From Lacinutrix mariniflava (lineage in GTDB: Bacteria > Bacteroidota > Bacteroidia > Flavobacteriales > Flavobacteriaceae), in the NCBI RefSeq assembly GCF_001418015.1, contig NZ_LIQG01000026.1, positions 1-64,000 on the forward strand: a stretch of DNA of 64,000 nucleotides, in the 5' to 3' direction. The notes beneath the pieces were generated by a model, which did not search any database, was not told where the DNA came from, and saw nothing but the letters and a program-made list of their open reading frames with translations. Of the stretch, positions 21,331 to 24,709 are shown piece by piece (position 1 is the first letter of the stretch; the number at the start of each line of letters is the position of its first letter). The translations under genes and the position numbers were made by a program.

Positions 21331-21338
21331 TATTTTTG
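21331..21338 (+). promoter_or_regulatory. Promoter -7 box for cyanophycinase
   Basis: TATTTTTG followed by CC fits the Bacteroidota -7 consensus TAnnTTTG. It lies 31 bp before the chosen ATG at 21369, giving a leader of about 24 nt. An alternative start at 21336 would fall inside this promoter. No clear -33 TTG is seen. Confidence 0.5.
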
Positions 21339-21368
21339 CCACATACAAATTATTGCAATCCCAGATTT

Positions 21369-22229
21369 ATGTTGAAGAATAAAGGAACACTAATTCCTAT
21401 TGGTGGAAATGAAGATAAAGGAATAGAAGAAAACGAACAATACACTTTAGAGTTCATTTCCGAAGGCATTCTGTTTCACGTAGTTAGAGAATCAGGTGGA
21501 ATAGATGCAAATATTGTAGTTATTCCTACAGCATCAAGTATCCCTGTAGAAGTAGGCGAAAATTATTTAGAAGCTTTTTCTACTTTAGGTTGCACAAATG
21601 TTACTGTTTTAGATATTAGAAGTAAGGAAGATTCTAATAAACAAGAATCTATAGACTTAATAAAAGCAGCCAATTGCGTTATGTTTTCTGGTGGAGATCA
21701 ATCTAAGATTACCGATAAAATTGGCGGTACCGAAATTCACGAGATTATAAAAAAGCGTTATAAAACCGAAAAAGGTTTTGTTGTCGCAGGTACAAGTGCT
21801 GGAGCCATGATGATGTCTAACGAAATGATTGCTGGCGGAAGCGCAACAGAATCGTTTATAAAAGGCGCAGTTACTATGTACAAAGGCCTAAGTTTAGTCC
21901 CTGGTTTAATTATAGACACACACTTTATAAAACGTGGTCGTTTTGGTCGCGTATCCGAAGCTGTAGCGCAATTTCCAAAACTAATTGGAATTGGTTTAGC
22001 CGAAGACACTGGTATGATTATTAAAAACAGCAAATGTCGCGTCATCGGTTCTGGAATGGTAATTATTTTCGATGGTCGCCGTTTAAGACACAACAAACAT
22101 TCTCTTTTAAAAGAAGGCACACCAATGTCTTTAACCGGAATGCGAACTCACATTTTATCTAATGGAGATTATTTCCATATAGACAAGAAAAAAGTAAAAG
22201 TATTGGCTATCGAAGCTCCCTTTATATAG
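21369..22229 (+). CDS. cphB: Cyanophycinase
   Basis: This serine exopeptidase of the S51 family hydrolyses cyanophycin to beta-Asp-Arg dipeptides. The product (286 residues, starting MLKNKGTLIPIGGNEDKG) carries the nucleophile elbow VAGTSAGAMMM with Ser143, the CVMFSGGDQSKI stretch, and downstream IDTHFIKRGRFGR and GLAEDTGM, all typical of cyanophycinases. It has no signal peptide, so it is the intracellular type used for turnover rather than the secreted type for scavenging. The gene is divergent from cphA, so the pair may be regulated from the shared intergenic region. The repeat island begins within 10 bp of its stop codon. Confidence 0.95.
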   Translation: MLKNKGTLIPIGGNEDKGIEENEQYTLEFISEGILFHVVRESGGIDANIVVIPTASSIPVEVGENYLEAFSTLGCTNVTVLDIRSKEDSNKQESIDLIKAANCVMFSGGDQSKITDKIGGTEIHEIIKKRYKTEKGFVVAGTSAGAMMMSNEMIAGGSATESFIKGAVTMYKGLSLVPGLIIDTHFIKRGRFGRVSEAVAQFPKLIGIGLAEDTGMIIKNSKCRVIGSGMVIIFDGRRLRHNKHSLLKEGTPMSLTGMRTHILSNGDYFHIDKKKVKVLAIEAPFI

Positions 22230-22288: not shown

Positions 22289-22363
22289 GGGCGTTACCTA
22301 AAGGTCTGGCTGTACACTATATCTTTTTTTAAGAAAAAAGGATGCCGTTTCCATCCTTAACGC
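22289..22363. repeat. Structured intergenic repeat with GCGTTA/TAACGC ends
   Basis: Terminal arms GCGTTA (22291-22296) and TAACGC (22358-22363) enclose an inner GGATG/CATCC hairpin and a poly-T/poly-A stretch (ATCTTTTTTTAAGAAAAAAGGAT). The segment looks like a known style of flavobacterial intergenic repeat. It is non-coding as far as I can see and has no second copy here. Confidence 0.5.
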
Positions 22364-22396
22364 AGAAGTACAATACGTAACTATTTATTTAGACGG

Positions 22397-22514
22397 TTCT
22401 CGATACAATTTCGATAAAAAAAATCGATATCACTCGAACTGACAACAACTTTCAATTTAGCACCCAACTGTCACTTCGAGTGATTTGTGAGGAACGAGCA
22501 AATTGTATCGAGAA
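22397..22514. repeat. Palindromic array unit 1 (type A)
   Basis: The unit begins TTCTCGATACAATTT and ends AAATTGTATCGAGAA, a perfect 15-bp inverted repeat. Nested inside are TCACTCGAACTGACA and TGTCACTTCGAGTGA (14 of 15 complementary) around a conserved 24-nt centre. Type A units carry a small extra hairpin (TTTCGAT...ATCGAT) between the left arms. A 36-bp spacer separates this unit from unit 2. Confidence 0.9.
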
Positions 22515-22550
22515 GCTTTTAGCTAATAACACAAATTATTTTCAAAATAG

Positions 22551-22663
22551 TTCTCGATAAAATACTCCTATCGTCGCATCACTCGAACTGACAACTACTT
22601 TCAATTTAGCACCCAACTGTCACTTCGAGTGATTTGTGAAGCATGAACAAATTGTATCGAGAA
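22551..22663. repeat. Palindromic array unit 2 (type B)
   Basis: This unit has the same outer and inner arms as unit 1. The left insert is of type B (CTCCTATCGTCGCA) instead of the small hairpin, and the left outer arm reads TTCTCGATAAAAT. It is followed after 28 bp by the GIY-YIG gene. Confidence 0.9.
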
Positions 22664-22691
22664 GCTAAATCATTTTTAGTTACCTTTAGAT

Positions 22692-22985
22692 ATGAAAACT
22701 TACTACGTTTACATATTAGAATGCTCCGACAAAAGCTATTACACTGGCTTCACTTCAAGACTCCACTCAAGAGTTATAGAGCATCAAACAGGCAAATATC
22801 CAGATTGTTATACCTATAAAAGAAGACCAATTAATTTAGTTTTTCATGCTGAATTTACAGATCCAAATCATGCTATCGATTCAGAGAAACAAATTAAAAA
22901 ATGGTCAAGAAAAAAGAAAGAAGCTCTCATAAATAATGAGTTTGAGAAGTTGCCTAACCTTTCAAAAAAGAAATTTAAAGAGTGA
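22692..22985 (+). CDS. Small GIY-YIG nuclease inside a palindromic repeat array
   Basis: The 97-residue protein is a stand-alone GIY-YIG domain (UvrC-N-like / UPF0213 type). Visible motifs are YYVYILECSDKSYYTGFT (the GIY...YIG equivalent), RLHSRVIEHQTGK with the catalytic Arg, and the AIDSEKQIKKWSRKKKEALI helix with the metal-binding Glu. Such proteins are single-strand or structure-selective endonucleases by family, but the function of this short type is unknown. The gene lies between repeat units 2 and 3; unit 3 begins 4 bp past the stop codon. It thus takes the place that a 36-bp spacer has elsewhere in the array. This physical link suggests that the nuclease acts on, or moves with, the palindromes. 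Confidence 0.9.
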   Translation: MKTYYVYILECSDKSYYTGFTSRLHSRVIEHQTGKYPDCYTYKRRPINLVFHAEFTDPNHAIDSEKQIKKWSRKKKEALINNEFEKLPNLSKKKFKE

Positions 22986-22989
22986 TAGG

Positions 22990-23106
22990 TTCTCGATACA
23001 AAATTGCAGAAAAAGCAATTTCACTCGAACTGACAACAAACTTTCAATTTAGCACCCAACTGTCACTTCGAGTGATTTGTGAAGCATGAACAAATTGTAT
23101 CGAGAA
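22990..23106. repeat. Palindromic array unit 3 (type A, variant hairpin)
   Basis: The outer and inner arms are as in the other units. The small left hairpin differs in sequence (AAATTGC...GCAATTT) yet remains perfectly paired. This compensatory pattern suggests that the structure is maintained. A 36-bp spacer follows. Confidence 0.9.
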
Positions 23107-23142
23107 GCTTTCAACTAATAATACAAACTGTTTTTAAAAGAG

Positions 23143-23255
23143 TTCTCGATACAGTGCTCCTATCGTCGCATCACTCGAACTGACAACAACTTTCAATTTA
23201 GAACCCAACTGTCACTTCGAGTGATTTGTGAAGCATGAGCAAATTGTATCGAGAA
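23143..23255. repeat. Palindromic array unit 4 (type B)
   Basis: Type B unit: left arm TTCTCGATACAGTG, insert CTCCTATCGTCGCA, conserved centre, right arm AAATTGTATCGAGAA. A 36-bp spacer follows. Confidence 0.9.
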
Positions 23256-23291
23256 GCTTTTAACGAATAACACAATTTCTTTTCAAAATAG

Positions 23292-23407
23292 TTCTCGATA
23301 CAATTTCGATGAAAAATCGAAATCACTCGAACTGACAACAACTCACAATTTAGCACCCAACTGTCACTTCGAGTGATTTGTGAAGCATGAACAAATTGTA
23401 TCGAGAA
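23292..23407. repeat. Palindromic array unit 5 (type A)
   Basis: Type A unit with a perfect 8-bp small hairpin (ATTTCGAT/ATCGAAAT, loop GAAAA). Outer and inner arms are intact. The 36-bp spacer to unit 6 is similar in sequence to the other spacers. Confidence 0.9.
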
Positions 23408-23443
23408 GCCTTCAACTAATAACACAAATTGTTTTCAAAATAG

Positions 23444-23559
23444 TTCTCGATACAATTTCAATAAAAAATCGAAATCACTCGAACTGACAGCAACTTACAA
23501 TTTAGCACCCAACTGTCACTTCGAGTGATTTGTGAAGCATGAGCAAATTGTATCGAGAA
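23444..23559. repeat. Palindromic array unit 6 (type A)
   Basis: Type A unit with one mismatch in the small hairpin (ATTTCAAT/ATCGAAAT). Outer and inner arms are intact. A shortened 24-bp spacer leads to the partial unit 7. Confidence 0.9.
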
Positions 23560-23583
23560 GCTTTTAACTAATAACACAAATAG

Positions 23584-23626
23584 TTCTCAATATAATGCTC
23601 CTATCGTCGCATCACTCGAACTGACA
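23584..23626. repeat. Palindromic array unit 7 (type B, left half only)
   Basis: Only the left outer arm (degenerate, TTCTCAATATAATG), the type B insert and the left inner arm are present. The unit breaks off at TCACTCGAACTGACA, 14 bp before the stop codon of the beta-aspartyl peptidase gene. Confidence 0.8.
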
Positions 23627-23639
23627 ATCAATTATATTA

Positions 23640-24569
23640 CTATTTATAAATAGAAACTTCCTCAACACCAGTAGAAGATTTACTAGCACGATACATACCT
23701 TCTGTATTAAAAGGCATTGCAATGTTTCCTTTGGTATCTACAGCAATTAAACCACCATCACCTTTAATTTCAAGAATACGTTTGTTTATAACTTCGTTAG
23801 CAGCATCTTCAAGAGACATCTCTTTGTGTTCTATTAAACAAGCCACATCGTAAGCTACAACACCACGAATAAAAAACTCACCACTTCCTGTACAAGAAAT
23901 AGCACAGGTTTTATTGTTAGCGTAATTTCCGGCTCCAATCATTGGGCTATCACCTACGCGTCCCCATTTTTTATTAGTCATTCCTCCTGTTGATGTTGCT
24001 GCAGCAATGTTACCATCTTTATCGCAAGCTACTGCTCCAACGGTTCCAAATTTAGAATCCTTTTTTGTAGCATGATCTAACTGAAAACTATCTGTATCCT
24101 TGATCTCTAACCATTGGTTATGTCTTAATTCATCGTAGAAATACGATTCATTTTCAAGCTTGTAATCTAACTGTTTAGCAAACTGCATTGCACCTTCACC
24201 AGCGAGAAAAACATGCTCGCTTTTTTCCATAACATCACGCGCTAAACTCACCGGATTTTTAATTCCAGTAATTAAACTCACAGCTCCTGCGTTTAATGTT
24301 TTACCATCCATTATAGACGCATCCATTTCATGAGATTCGGTTGCAGTAAATACAGATCCTTTTCCTGCGTTAAACAATGGAGAATCCTCTAAAATAATCA
24401 CTGCTTTTTCAACAGCTTCTGTAGAAGTTCCATTATTTTCTAGTACTTTATATCCTTCATTTAATGCCAACTGTAAAGCCGCTTTATATTTAGCTTCCAA
24501 TTCTGGTGTCATCATTCCTTTTACTAAAGTTCCTGCTCCACCATGTATGGCAATCGAAAATGTATTCAT
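23640..24569 (-). CDS. Isoaspartyl peptidase / plant-type L-asparaginase
   Basis: This Ntn hydrolase (309 residues from the ATG at 24569; an in-frame start at 24590 adds seven untypical residues) belongs to the IaaA family, which cleaves beta-aspartyl dipeptides and asparagine. It begins FSIAIHGGAGTL. It autoprocesses before Thr176 in KFGTVGAVACD, followed by GRVGDSPMIGAGNYAN and CTGSGEFFIRG. No signal peptide is present, so it is cytoplasmic. In cyanophycin users an enzyme of this class splits beta-Asp-Arg, the product of cyanophycinase, into Asp and Arg. The position near cphA and cphB fits that role, although isoaspartyl-protein repair products are also possible substrates. Confidence 0.93.
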   Translation of the reverse strand: MNTFSIAIHGGAGTLVKGMMTPELEAKYKAALQLALNEGYKVLENNGTSTEAVEKAVIILEDSPLFNAGKGSVFTATESHEMDASIMDGKTLNAGAVSLITGIKNPVSLARDVMEKSEHVFLAGEGAMQFAKQLDYKLENESYFYDELRHNQWLEIKDTDSFQLDHATKKDSKFGTVGAVACDKDGNIAAATSTGGMTNKKWGRVGDSPMIGAGNYANNKTCAISCTGSGEFFIRGVVAYDVACLIEHKEMSLEDAANEVINKRILEIKGDGGLIAVDTKGNIAMPFNTEGMYRASKSSTGVEEVSIYK

Positions 24570-24709
24570 CTGTAAAATTATTTTCAGCAAAAATACGTTG
24601 AGATTTTTTAATAACTTTATTAAAAATGAGGTTCTTTAATTTTTAAAGAAATTGTAATTTGCAGATTGCAATTTCAATTAGACTTTTTGTTAGATAGAAT
24701 TAAAAGACT

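Follow-up and report, generated by a model that had tools for sequence, protein, structure and literature searches.

A stand-alone GIY-YIG nuclease as candidate enzyme of TGTC-tagged REP elements in Lacinutrix mariniflava

Why does the gene of a small GIY-YIG nuclease lie in the midst of an array of nested palindromes? The locus that raises this question occupies positions 22397-23626 of the window, by which we mean the whole stretch of 64,000 nucleotides that was analysed (contig NZ_LIQG01000026.1 of Lacinutrix mariniflava, positions 1 to 64,000), and comprises six full palindromes and one partial one, with the nuclease gene in one of the spacers. An initial annotation of this DNA had likened the arrangement to repetitive extragenic palindromic (REP) elements which possess an enzyme of their own. 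The likeness holds beyond the window: flanking repeats accompany such genes more often than control genes, the type of the repeat tracks the type of the nuclease, copies are found genome-wide, empty sites exist, and the genome has no match to Y1_Tnp. On balance, we consider it probable that the nuclease gene and the dimers on either side of it constitute a REPtron-like element, where a nuclease with GIY-YIG as its sole domain stands in for the RAYT transposase and recognizes its own CGTC- or TGTC-tagged hairpins.

The array consists of the following features, the coordinates of the units being counted from TTCTC as unit start:

22397..22514, + strand, REP dimer unit 1 (two inverted TGTC-tagged hairpins)
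22551..22663, + strand, REP dimer unit 2, directly upstream of the nuclease gene; its right-half tag is directed away from the gene
22692..22985, + strand, stand-alone GIY-YIG nuclease of 97 aa (open reading frame and Pfam), in the place of a 36-bp spacer
22990..23106, + strand, REP dimer unit 3, 4 bp past the stop codon of the nuclease frame
23143..23255, + strand, REP dimer unit 4
23292..23407, + strand, REP dimer unit 5
23444..23559, + strand, REP dimer unit 6
23584..23626, + strand, partial unit, left half only

The full units measure 113-118 bp. All four gene-free gaps between them are 36 bp long (35 bp, if the unit start is shifted one base earlier), the fifth gap of 326 bp contains the nuclease frame, and 24 bp precede the partial unit. 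A repeat search of the window returned six copies with a period of about 150 bp. For the inner arm TGTCACTTCGAGTGA, 16 matches with at most three mismatches were counted versus 0.96 expected, and for the outer arm 15 versus 5.5; none of 100 shuffles reached either value. The number and length of the units, the exact spacers, the spacer replaced by a gene and the shared outer and inner arms are all as the initial annotation had described them. Because each nested palindrome is made of two inverted copies of one TGTC-tagged hairpin, with halves of the form TGTCA(G/C)TTCGAGTGA...TCGAGAA, the half unit, a TGTC-tagged REP, is the natural element, of which the full unit represents a dimer. When the left and the right half of unit 5 were folded singly, each gave a hairpin whose TGTCA end is unpaired. 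Seen from the nuclease gene, both adjacent tags are directed outward, and by analogy the arrangement resembles an inverted REP dimer with the gene in place of its spacer.

Is the repeat confined to this locus, and which enzyme could move it? With at most one mismatch, the genome contains the outer arm 59 times, compared to two occurrences of the reversed pattern, and a query consisting of unit plus spacer gave 66 matches. Matches to PF01541 were found at nine places of the genome. Three of these are stand-alone genes with palindrome flanks, and the palindrome is a different one at each: the window type, a TGTCATTGCGAGG...GCAATCT type on contig C30, and a TGTCACACTGAGCGCAGTCGAAG type on contig C28. 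Among the other places, two belong to a tRNA-linked type described below, and the rest lie in larger frames or are weak (L009). A search for Y1_Tnp (PF01797; RAYT or IS200-type), the one transposase family covered, gave no match in this genome, which is 99.97% complete; a RAYT was therefore rejected as mobiliser here. That a RAYT or another transposase moves the repeats, with the GIY-YIG gene as a passenger, has a known precedent in the RAYT-type REPs and would accord with those genomes that contain repeats and no GIY-YIG gene. However, this explanation is very improbable: in addition to the missing PF01797 match, it does not account for the match between nuclease types and repeat types, and the article that defined CGTC-tagged REPs (Di Nocera et al. 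2013, PMC3733652) states that no transposase gene, specifically none of the tyrosine transposase genes, is flanked by CGTC repeats.

The pairing of the two types was followed in 40 genomes of the flavobacterial order, the own genome included. Stand-alone GIY-YIG genes are numerous in them, often several per genome, and some contain stops; 72 of those listed were examined, three of them from the own genome, while ten further small places (several of tRNA type or at contig ends) were omitted. A repeat common to both flanks (score of at least 18) was found for 45 of the 72 genes versus 2 of 220 control genes on the same stretches. The 45 include six genes of the tRNA type, in which the flanks have a tRNA fragment in common, and six that represent three genes in tandem copies. 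The flanks of 66 of the 72 genes (75-160 aa) were then compared in pairs, a repeat being regarded as shared at a score of at least 16. For pairs from different genomes with unrelated outer flanks, which have members in common and hence are non-independent, the flanking repeat was shared by 14/16 at 70-100% protein identity, 10/37 at 60-70%, 40/299 at 50-60%, 16/824 at 40-50%, and 2/757 at 30-40%. Below 30%, the number was 4/88; among the pairs listed, two of these consist of two tRNA-type genes. Within single genomes, 2 of 70 pairs with less than 60% identity share the repeat, and one of these two is a pair of adjacent genes. The palindrome type thus appears to follow the nuclease type at unrelated loci, and recognition of the cognate hairpin by the nuclease would be the simplest reading of this pairing.

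Two other REP patterns, both derived from flanks of nuclease genes, were searched in the same 40 genomes: 20 of 89 and 38 of 99 matches are at most 2 kb away from a stand-alone gene of the list, compared to an expectation of 0.4 each, and after grouping into 3-kb clusters 11 of 70 and 10 of 61 are near genes. In genomes containing the window-type nuclease, the number of window-type arms is 59 (G000), 33 (G001), 55 (G002), 11 (G003), and 15 (G018).

Several loci of the order deserve a description of their own. Near-identical nuclease copies (98-99%) stand in tandem together with repeats at L195/L223 (G001, contig C31, 88,400-90,100), L171 (G010), and L182 (G012); therefore, tandem duplication seems to affect blocks of gene plus repeat. 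Palindromes for which the tag detector was not designed, e.g. TTTCCGCACTTGATGCGGAA and GATTCCCGTTTTCACGGGAACAC, flank other GIY-YIG types at L198 and L052 (G022) and at L040, L042, L044, and L166 (G009, G004, G008, and G010). At L168 (G028, contig C1, ~2,022,000), a GIY-YIG gene lies within long direct repeats (shared-flank score 93) containing GATGCCTGAGGCTCTCGA. A further stand-alone type is linked to tRNA: the gene directly follows a tRNA gene and precedes a repeated 3' tRNA piece with a terminator, as seen at L227 (own genome, contig C26, ~389,150-390,000), L181, L067, L056, L179, L068, and L224. The tRNA is tRNA-Asn in the own genome and Val, Arg, or His elsewhere, and in several cases the gene is present in tandem copies. 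By analogy, this type may repeat the theme of hairpin and nuclease, with a tRNA standing in for the REP.

How far does the association reach? A protein search of plasmid records gave 33 records, among them Rhizobiaceae, Sphingomonadaceae, Azospirillum, Neisseria, Aeromonas, Photobacterium, Planktothrix, and Spirosoma. Sixteen of the 33 were inspected by eye, and all of these have a tagged hairpin within 250 bp on at least one side; in L081 and L084 the tag reads CCTC. A second set consists of the best 80 of 570 confirmed loci from a scan of genome contigs and is, due to this choice, close to the Neisseria-type query; in three of its loci (L137, L146, L160) the open frame as read has just 40-52 aa. 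According to the record titles, the 80 loci stem from proteobacteria of several classes, Myxococcota, Nitrospirota, Planctomycetota, Anaerolineae and Chloroflexi, Ignavibacteria, Atribacteria, and Chitinophaga. With a strict detector, a CGTC- or TGTC-tagged hairpin was found at most 300 bp from the gene in 72 of the 80 loci, and on both sides in 43. Inspection by eye of the eight loci missed by the detector revealed a related hairpin in each, or a relic (L156); L155 has inverted copies on both sides. A repeat common to both flanks (score of at least 18) exists at 49/80 loci versus 24/614 controls. In the flanks of these loci, the 4-mers preceding strong hairpins were most often CGTC (153 of 432) and CTGG (124), which is the other end of the repeat; GTAG is not among the 12 commonest 4-mers listed for these positions. 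One degenerate REP pattern matched in 20 of 23 GIY-bearing genomes or records (1 to 327 matches), with no match of the reversed control in any of them. The three pattern-negative records are Rhizobiaceae, in which the flanking repeats have another stem or tag.

Could such proximity arise by chance, or from a positional bias, small genes often being located in repeat-rich spacers? A tagged hairpin does occur in 55 of 357 control intergenic regions of the same loci, as this explanation would have it. Compared to these very controls, however, the regions adjacent to the nuclease gene are enriched (108 of 146; Fisher 3e-36), and the repeats on both sides of the gene match each other. Moreover, the distances recur: where the nearest upstream repeat is on the + strand, 12-20 bp separate the end of its stem from the start codon in 21 of 41 cases, and the nearest downstream repeat on the - strand begins 4-7 bp past the stop in 12 of 29. 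In addition, two other GIY-YIG types, the tRNA-type and the YhbQ-like genes, are without the CGTC pattern. We therefore give chance or bias hardly any credence. The nucleases are candidate enzymes for CGTC-tagged REPs. We lean, by a small margin only, to the broader proposal that single-domain GIY-YIG nucleases mobilise the whole superfamily of CGTC/TGTC-tagged REPs, from flavobacteria and Neisseria to Chloroflexi and planctomycetes; these would constitute a second class of REPs, not homologous to the RAYT class, which spreads by cut and repair instead of HuH strand transfer.

Did gene and repeats arrive together? Orthologous sites were located by means of the genes that neighbour the array:

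21336..22229, + strand, neighbour gene 1, by its sequence presumably cyanophycinase-like; adjoins the other neighbour in G010, where the array is absent
23640..24590, - strand, neighbour gene 2, which we take to be isoaspartyl peptidase/asparaginase-like by its sequence; served to locate orthologous empty and occupied sites

A Flavo-1 RNA (RF01705; 45.9 bits, gathering score 42, E 5e-8) is placed directly beside the array at 22299-22373 on the - strand. A reading of the array itself as non-coding RNA (Rfam, E of at most 1) was rejected: the match of a microRNA family over unit 4 is under the gathering score and was taken as a hairpin artefact.

Orthologues of the neighbour gene are 96% (G002), 92% (G001), and 87% (G010) identical. 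As judged by eye, the orthologous intergenic site holds an array with one GIY-YIG gene in G002 and with two in G001; in G010, the end of the neighbour gene abuts the end of the next gene, with neither array nor nuclease between them. The same picture was obtained in Azospirillum: the sufB-sufC gap of A. lipoferum 4B is 617 bp long and contains two dimers with the nuclease between them, and this gap is only 91 bp in A. ramasamyi, 87 bp in A. oryzae, and 129 bp in strain B510, all without a tagged hairpin. The comparison of empty and occupied sites, which the initial annotation had proposed as a check, hence yields G010 and three Azospirillum alleles that are without gene and repeats alike; therefore, at the available resolution, both were gained or lost together. 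Repeats are present at both ends of the element, and the empty sites are too diverged for a target-site duplication to be read. Clean empty sites were obtained around L070, and none in plasmid searches around L077 and L079. L252 as the empty counterpart of L069 (84% identity) was rejected and not counted, since the gene is absent but the neighbouring frames differ.

These sites bear on the main rival explanation, according to which the nuclease is a free-standing homing endonuclease with the REP as recognition site, which homes into its own repeats, these having been made by something else. The position of the gene in a dimer spacer in the window and the recurring close distances to repeats elsewhere would fit homing, and the repeat type would follow the nuclease type in this case too. 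There is also some likeness in sequence: TIGR01453 (group I intron endonucleases) matches weakly, with 26 bits for L001 and 17 bits for two others at a cut-off of 56, and L001 resembles a phage homing endonuclease family (E 9e-4). In contrast, the three Azospirillum sister alleles and the G010 allele are devoid of repeats as well as of the gene, so that at these sites the gene did not enter an old repeat common to the alleles. Moreover, homing provides no enzyme for the spread of the repeats, and the genome lacks a Y1 transposase. We thus regard homing as unlikely, although it is the strongest competitor of a REPtron-like element; within one lineage, the repeats may still have come first and the gene second.

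Presence and absence of gene and repeats were surveyed in 140 genomes from the class to which N. gonorrhoeae belongs (G040, included; the query's own genome is among the 140), using one REP pattern and requiring a nuclease match of E 5e-29 or better; six weaker nuclease matches were excluded from the counts. Among these genomes, 27 have a strong nuclease match and 42 at least one REP of the pattern. The nuclease is found in 21 of the 42 REP-bearing genomes versus 6 of the 98 others (Fisher 1e-8, kinship uncorrected), and in 10 of the 17 genomes with at least 10 REP matches.

Several observations weigh against a REPtron-like element. Firstly, gene and repeat do not always coincide. In this class, the nuclease type is present in the six genomes mentioned that are without the REP pattern, and 7 of the 17 REP-rich genomes are without this nuclease type. 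Genome G036, from another family of the flavobacterial order, has 72 window-type arms without a cognate gene; its three GIY-YIG matches (loci L225, L226) comprise two large frames, one of them UvrC-size, and a tRNA-type fragment. Similarly, 29, 18, 16, 14, and 13 arms were counted in G006, G012, G015, G005, and G010, and there is no intact window-type gene among the genes read from these five genomes, some assemblies of which are incomplete. Repeats can therefore exist without the gene, and in some genomes they outlive or lack it. The initial annotation had named arrays occurring broadly without any GIY-YIG gene as contrary evidence, and this holds in part, in that repeats without a nuclease of the cognate type occur in some genomes. 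A PF01541 search of the seven REP-rich genomes showed that six possess a different small type, which we label YhbQ-like and presume to be housekeeping-like (in G127, it lies inside a 390-aa open frame), and this type has no CGTC association; in the seventh, G115, only one UvrC-size frame and one of 249 aa matched. Secondly, the empty alleles have diverged by 6.5-8% in DNA (Azospirillum) or by 13% in the neighbour protein (G010), which is too far to order the arrival of gene and repeat. Thirdly, in a comparison of ~200 kb between G004 and G008 (84% identity), none of the nine simple indels printed contained a tagged hairpin. Finally, the orientation of the tags at the 43 two-sided loci is mixed, with 16 outward, 11 inward, and 16 one-way.

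What kind of protein is encoded? The frame in the window matches PF01541 with 53.7 bits (cut-off 22.6). In each of three alignments, which have 19-24 members, positions occupied by Tyr, Tyr, Gly, Arg, His, and Glu do not vary, and an Asn position is invariant in one alignment (20 rows) but not in the other two; we take the invariant positions to be the catalytic residues. The ratio of nonsynonymous to synonymous substitution rates (dN/dS) is 0.04-0.11 in those 12 of 16 nuclease pairs for which dS was computable, which indicates purifying selection on the nuclease. A structure model (mean pLDDT 86.5) has its best PDB matches in UPF0213 proteins (E 1e-5 and 7e-4), followed weakly by Slx1 (E 0.013 and above), which the PDB titles describe as a structure-selective nuclease; the sequence profile matches UPF0213, UvrC, and one SLX1 homologue. 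In a tree of 164 proteins, which is poorly resolved with many open forks (98 columns), the tRNA-associated genes lie on one branch and the YhbQ-like genes on one branch. A reading as a defence system was rejected, as PADLOC matches were weak and concerned one of three proteins only.

The relation to UPF0213 and, weakly, to Slx1, as well as the purifying selection, would also suit a host nuclease which clears or resolves hairpins and is found near repeats because it controls their numbers. The natural candidate for such a function is the YhbQ-like type, but even in REP-rich genomes no CGTC hairpin lies within 300 bp of any of its six genes; a TGTC hairpin, which is unrelated, is present at one of them. 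Furthermore, there are several repeat-bearing types per genome, each with a repeat of its own, and their positions vary between relatives. A role in host maintenance is thus improbable, and clearly more so than homing.

If the nuclease does mobilise its repeats, the process might be as follows. Either as a cruciform or on DNA that is single-stranded at the replication fork, the hairpin would extrude and be recognized by the nuclease, which would cut at or near the tag. Host repair might then copy or rejoin the repeat, or the block of repeat, gene, and repeat, at a new place; it may also even out the tandem arrays, and non-autonomous dimers could spread elsewhere in the genome. GIY-YIG enzymes cut by hydrolysis, and none is known to rejoin ends; rejoining must therefore come from host repair.

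If the mobilising role extends to the whole superfamily, it would answer a question left open in 2013. Given the match of nuclease and repeat types in many phyla, the question of the enzyme can be addressed directly by experiment, for which a short hairpin and a protein of ~95 residues suffice. Should the nuclease spread the repeats, REP dispersal would have evolved twice in bacteria with unrelated enzymes, and since one of these two enzymes is not expected to rejoin DNA alone, host repair would be part of the mechanism. A gene annotated just as 'GIY-YIG nuclease family protein' would thus gain a function.

With regard to the literature, PMC3733652 includes dRS3 of Neisseria and RPE-4/RPE-6 of Rickettsia among the CGTC-tagged REPs, reports the latter from five phyla, and describes them as apparently without a dedicated transposase. 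The letters GIY do not occur in the main text of two later REP papers (word search of PMC12306157 and PMC6006769), and passages of PMC5082802 examined for a nuclease near Bradyrhizobium REPs did not contain the words searched. Titles and abstract starts among the matches listed contain no link between GIY-YIG and REP, in a coverage comprising few subscription papers and no preprints; with the same coverage, GIY-YIG combined with 'repetitive extragenic palindromic' or with dRS3 gave no match.

Which known system does the element resemble most? With free-standing GIY-YIG homing endonucleases it shares the catalytic domain and the small mobile gene; unlike these, it has a single domain of ~95 residues and lies among repeats, not in a conserved target gene. 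UPF0213/YhbQ and Slx1 are the best matches among solved structures, both by sequence profile and by model, but the YhbQ-like genes examined have no flanking CGTC repeats; Slx1 is a eukaryotic protein with Slx4 as its partner. The repeats themselves agree with the CGTC-tagged REP superfamily, as characterized in PMC3733652, with respect to the CGTC/TGTC tag (in some cases CCTC), the stem directly after it, the short loop, and the inverted dimers. The superfamily form with a stem of 8-9 bp, a loop of 4-5, and a CCA tail is seen in many of the 80 loci, whereas in the window halves the stem is longer and interrupted and CCA is missing. Our set and the article have A. lipoferum, S. meliloti, N. aromaticivorans, and Neisseria in common; here, however, the repeats flank a nuclease gene, whereas no associated transposase is reported there.

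Closest in organization is the REPtron, i.e. RAYT (TnpA-REP) with GTAG-tagged REPs and REPINs. The enzymes differ, a GIY-YIG nuclease here and a HuH Y1 transposase (PF01797) there; strand-transfer chemistry is not expected of GIY-YIG enzymes. The tags differ as well, CGTC/TGTC here (the window halves begin with TGTCA) and GTAG in the REPtron. In both, a small gene lies between inverted hairpin repeats with a short unpaired tag, the cognate palindromes that flank the gene also occur elsewhere in the genome as scattered dimers and singles, and a genome may contain several types, each with its own repeat. Finally, enzyme and repeat co-evolve, as reported for RAYT from in vitro assays (PMC8266576) and as the joint variation of nuclease and palindrome types suggests here.

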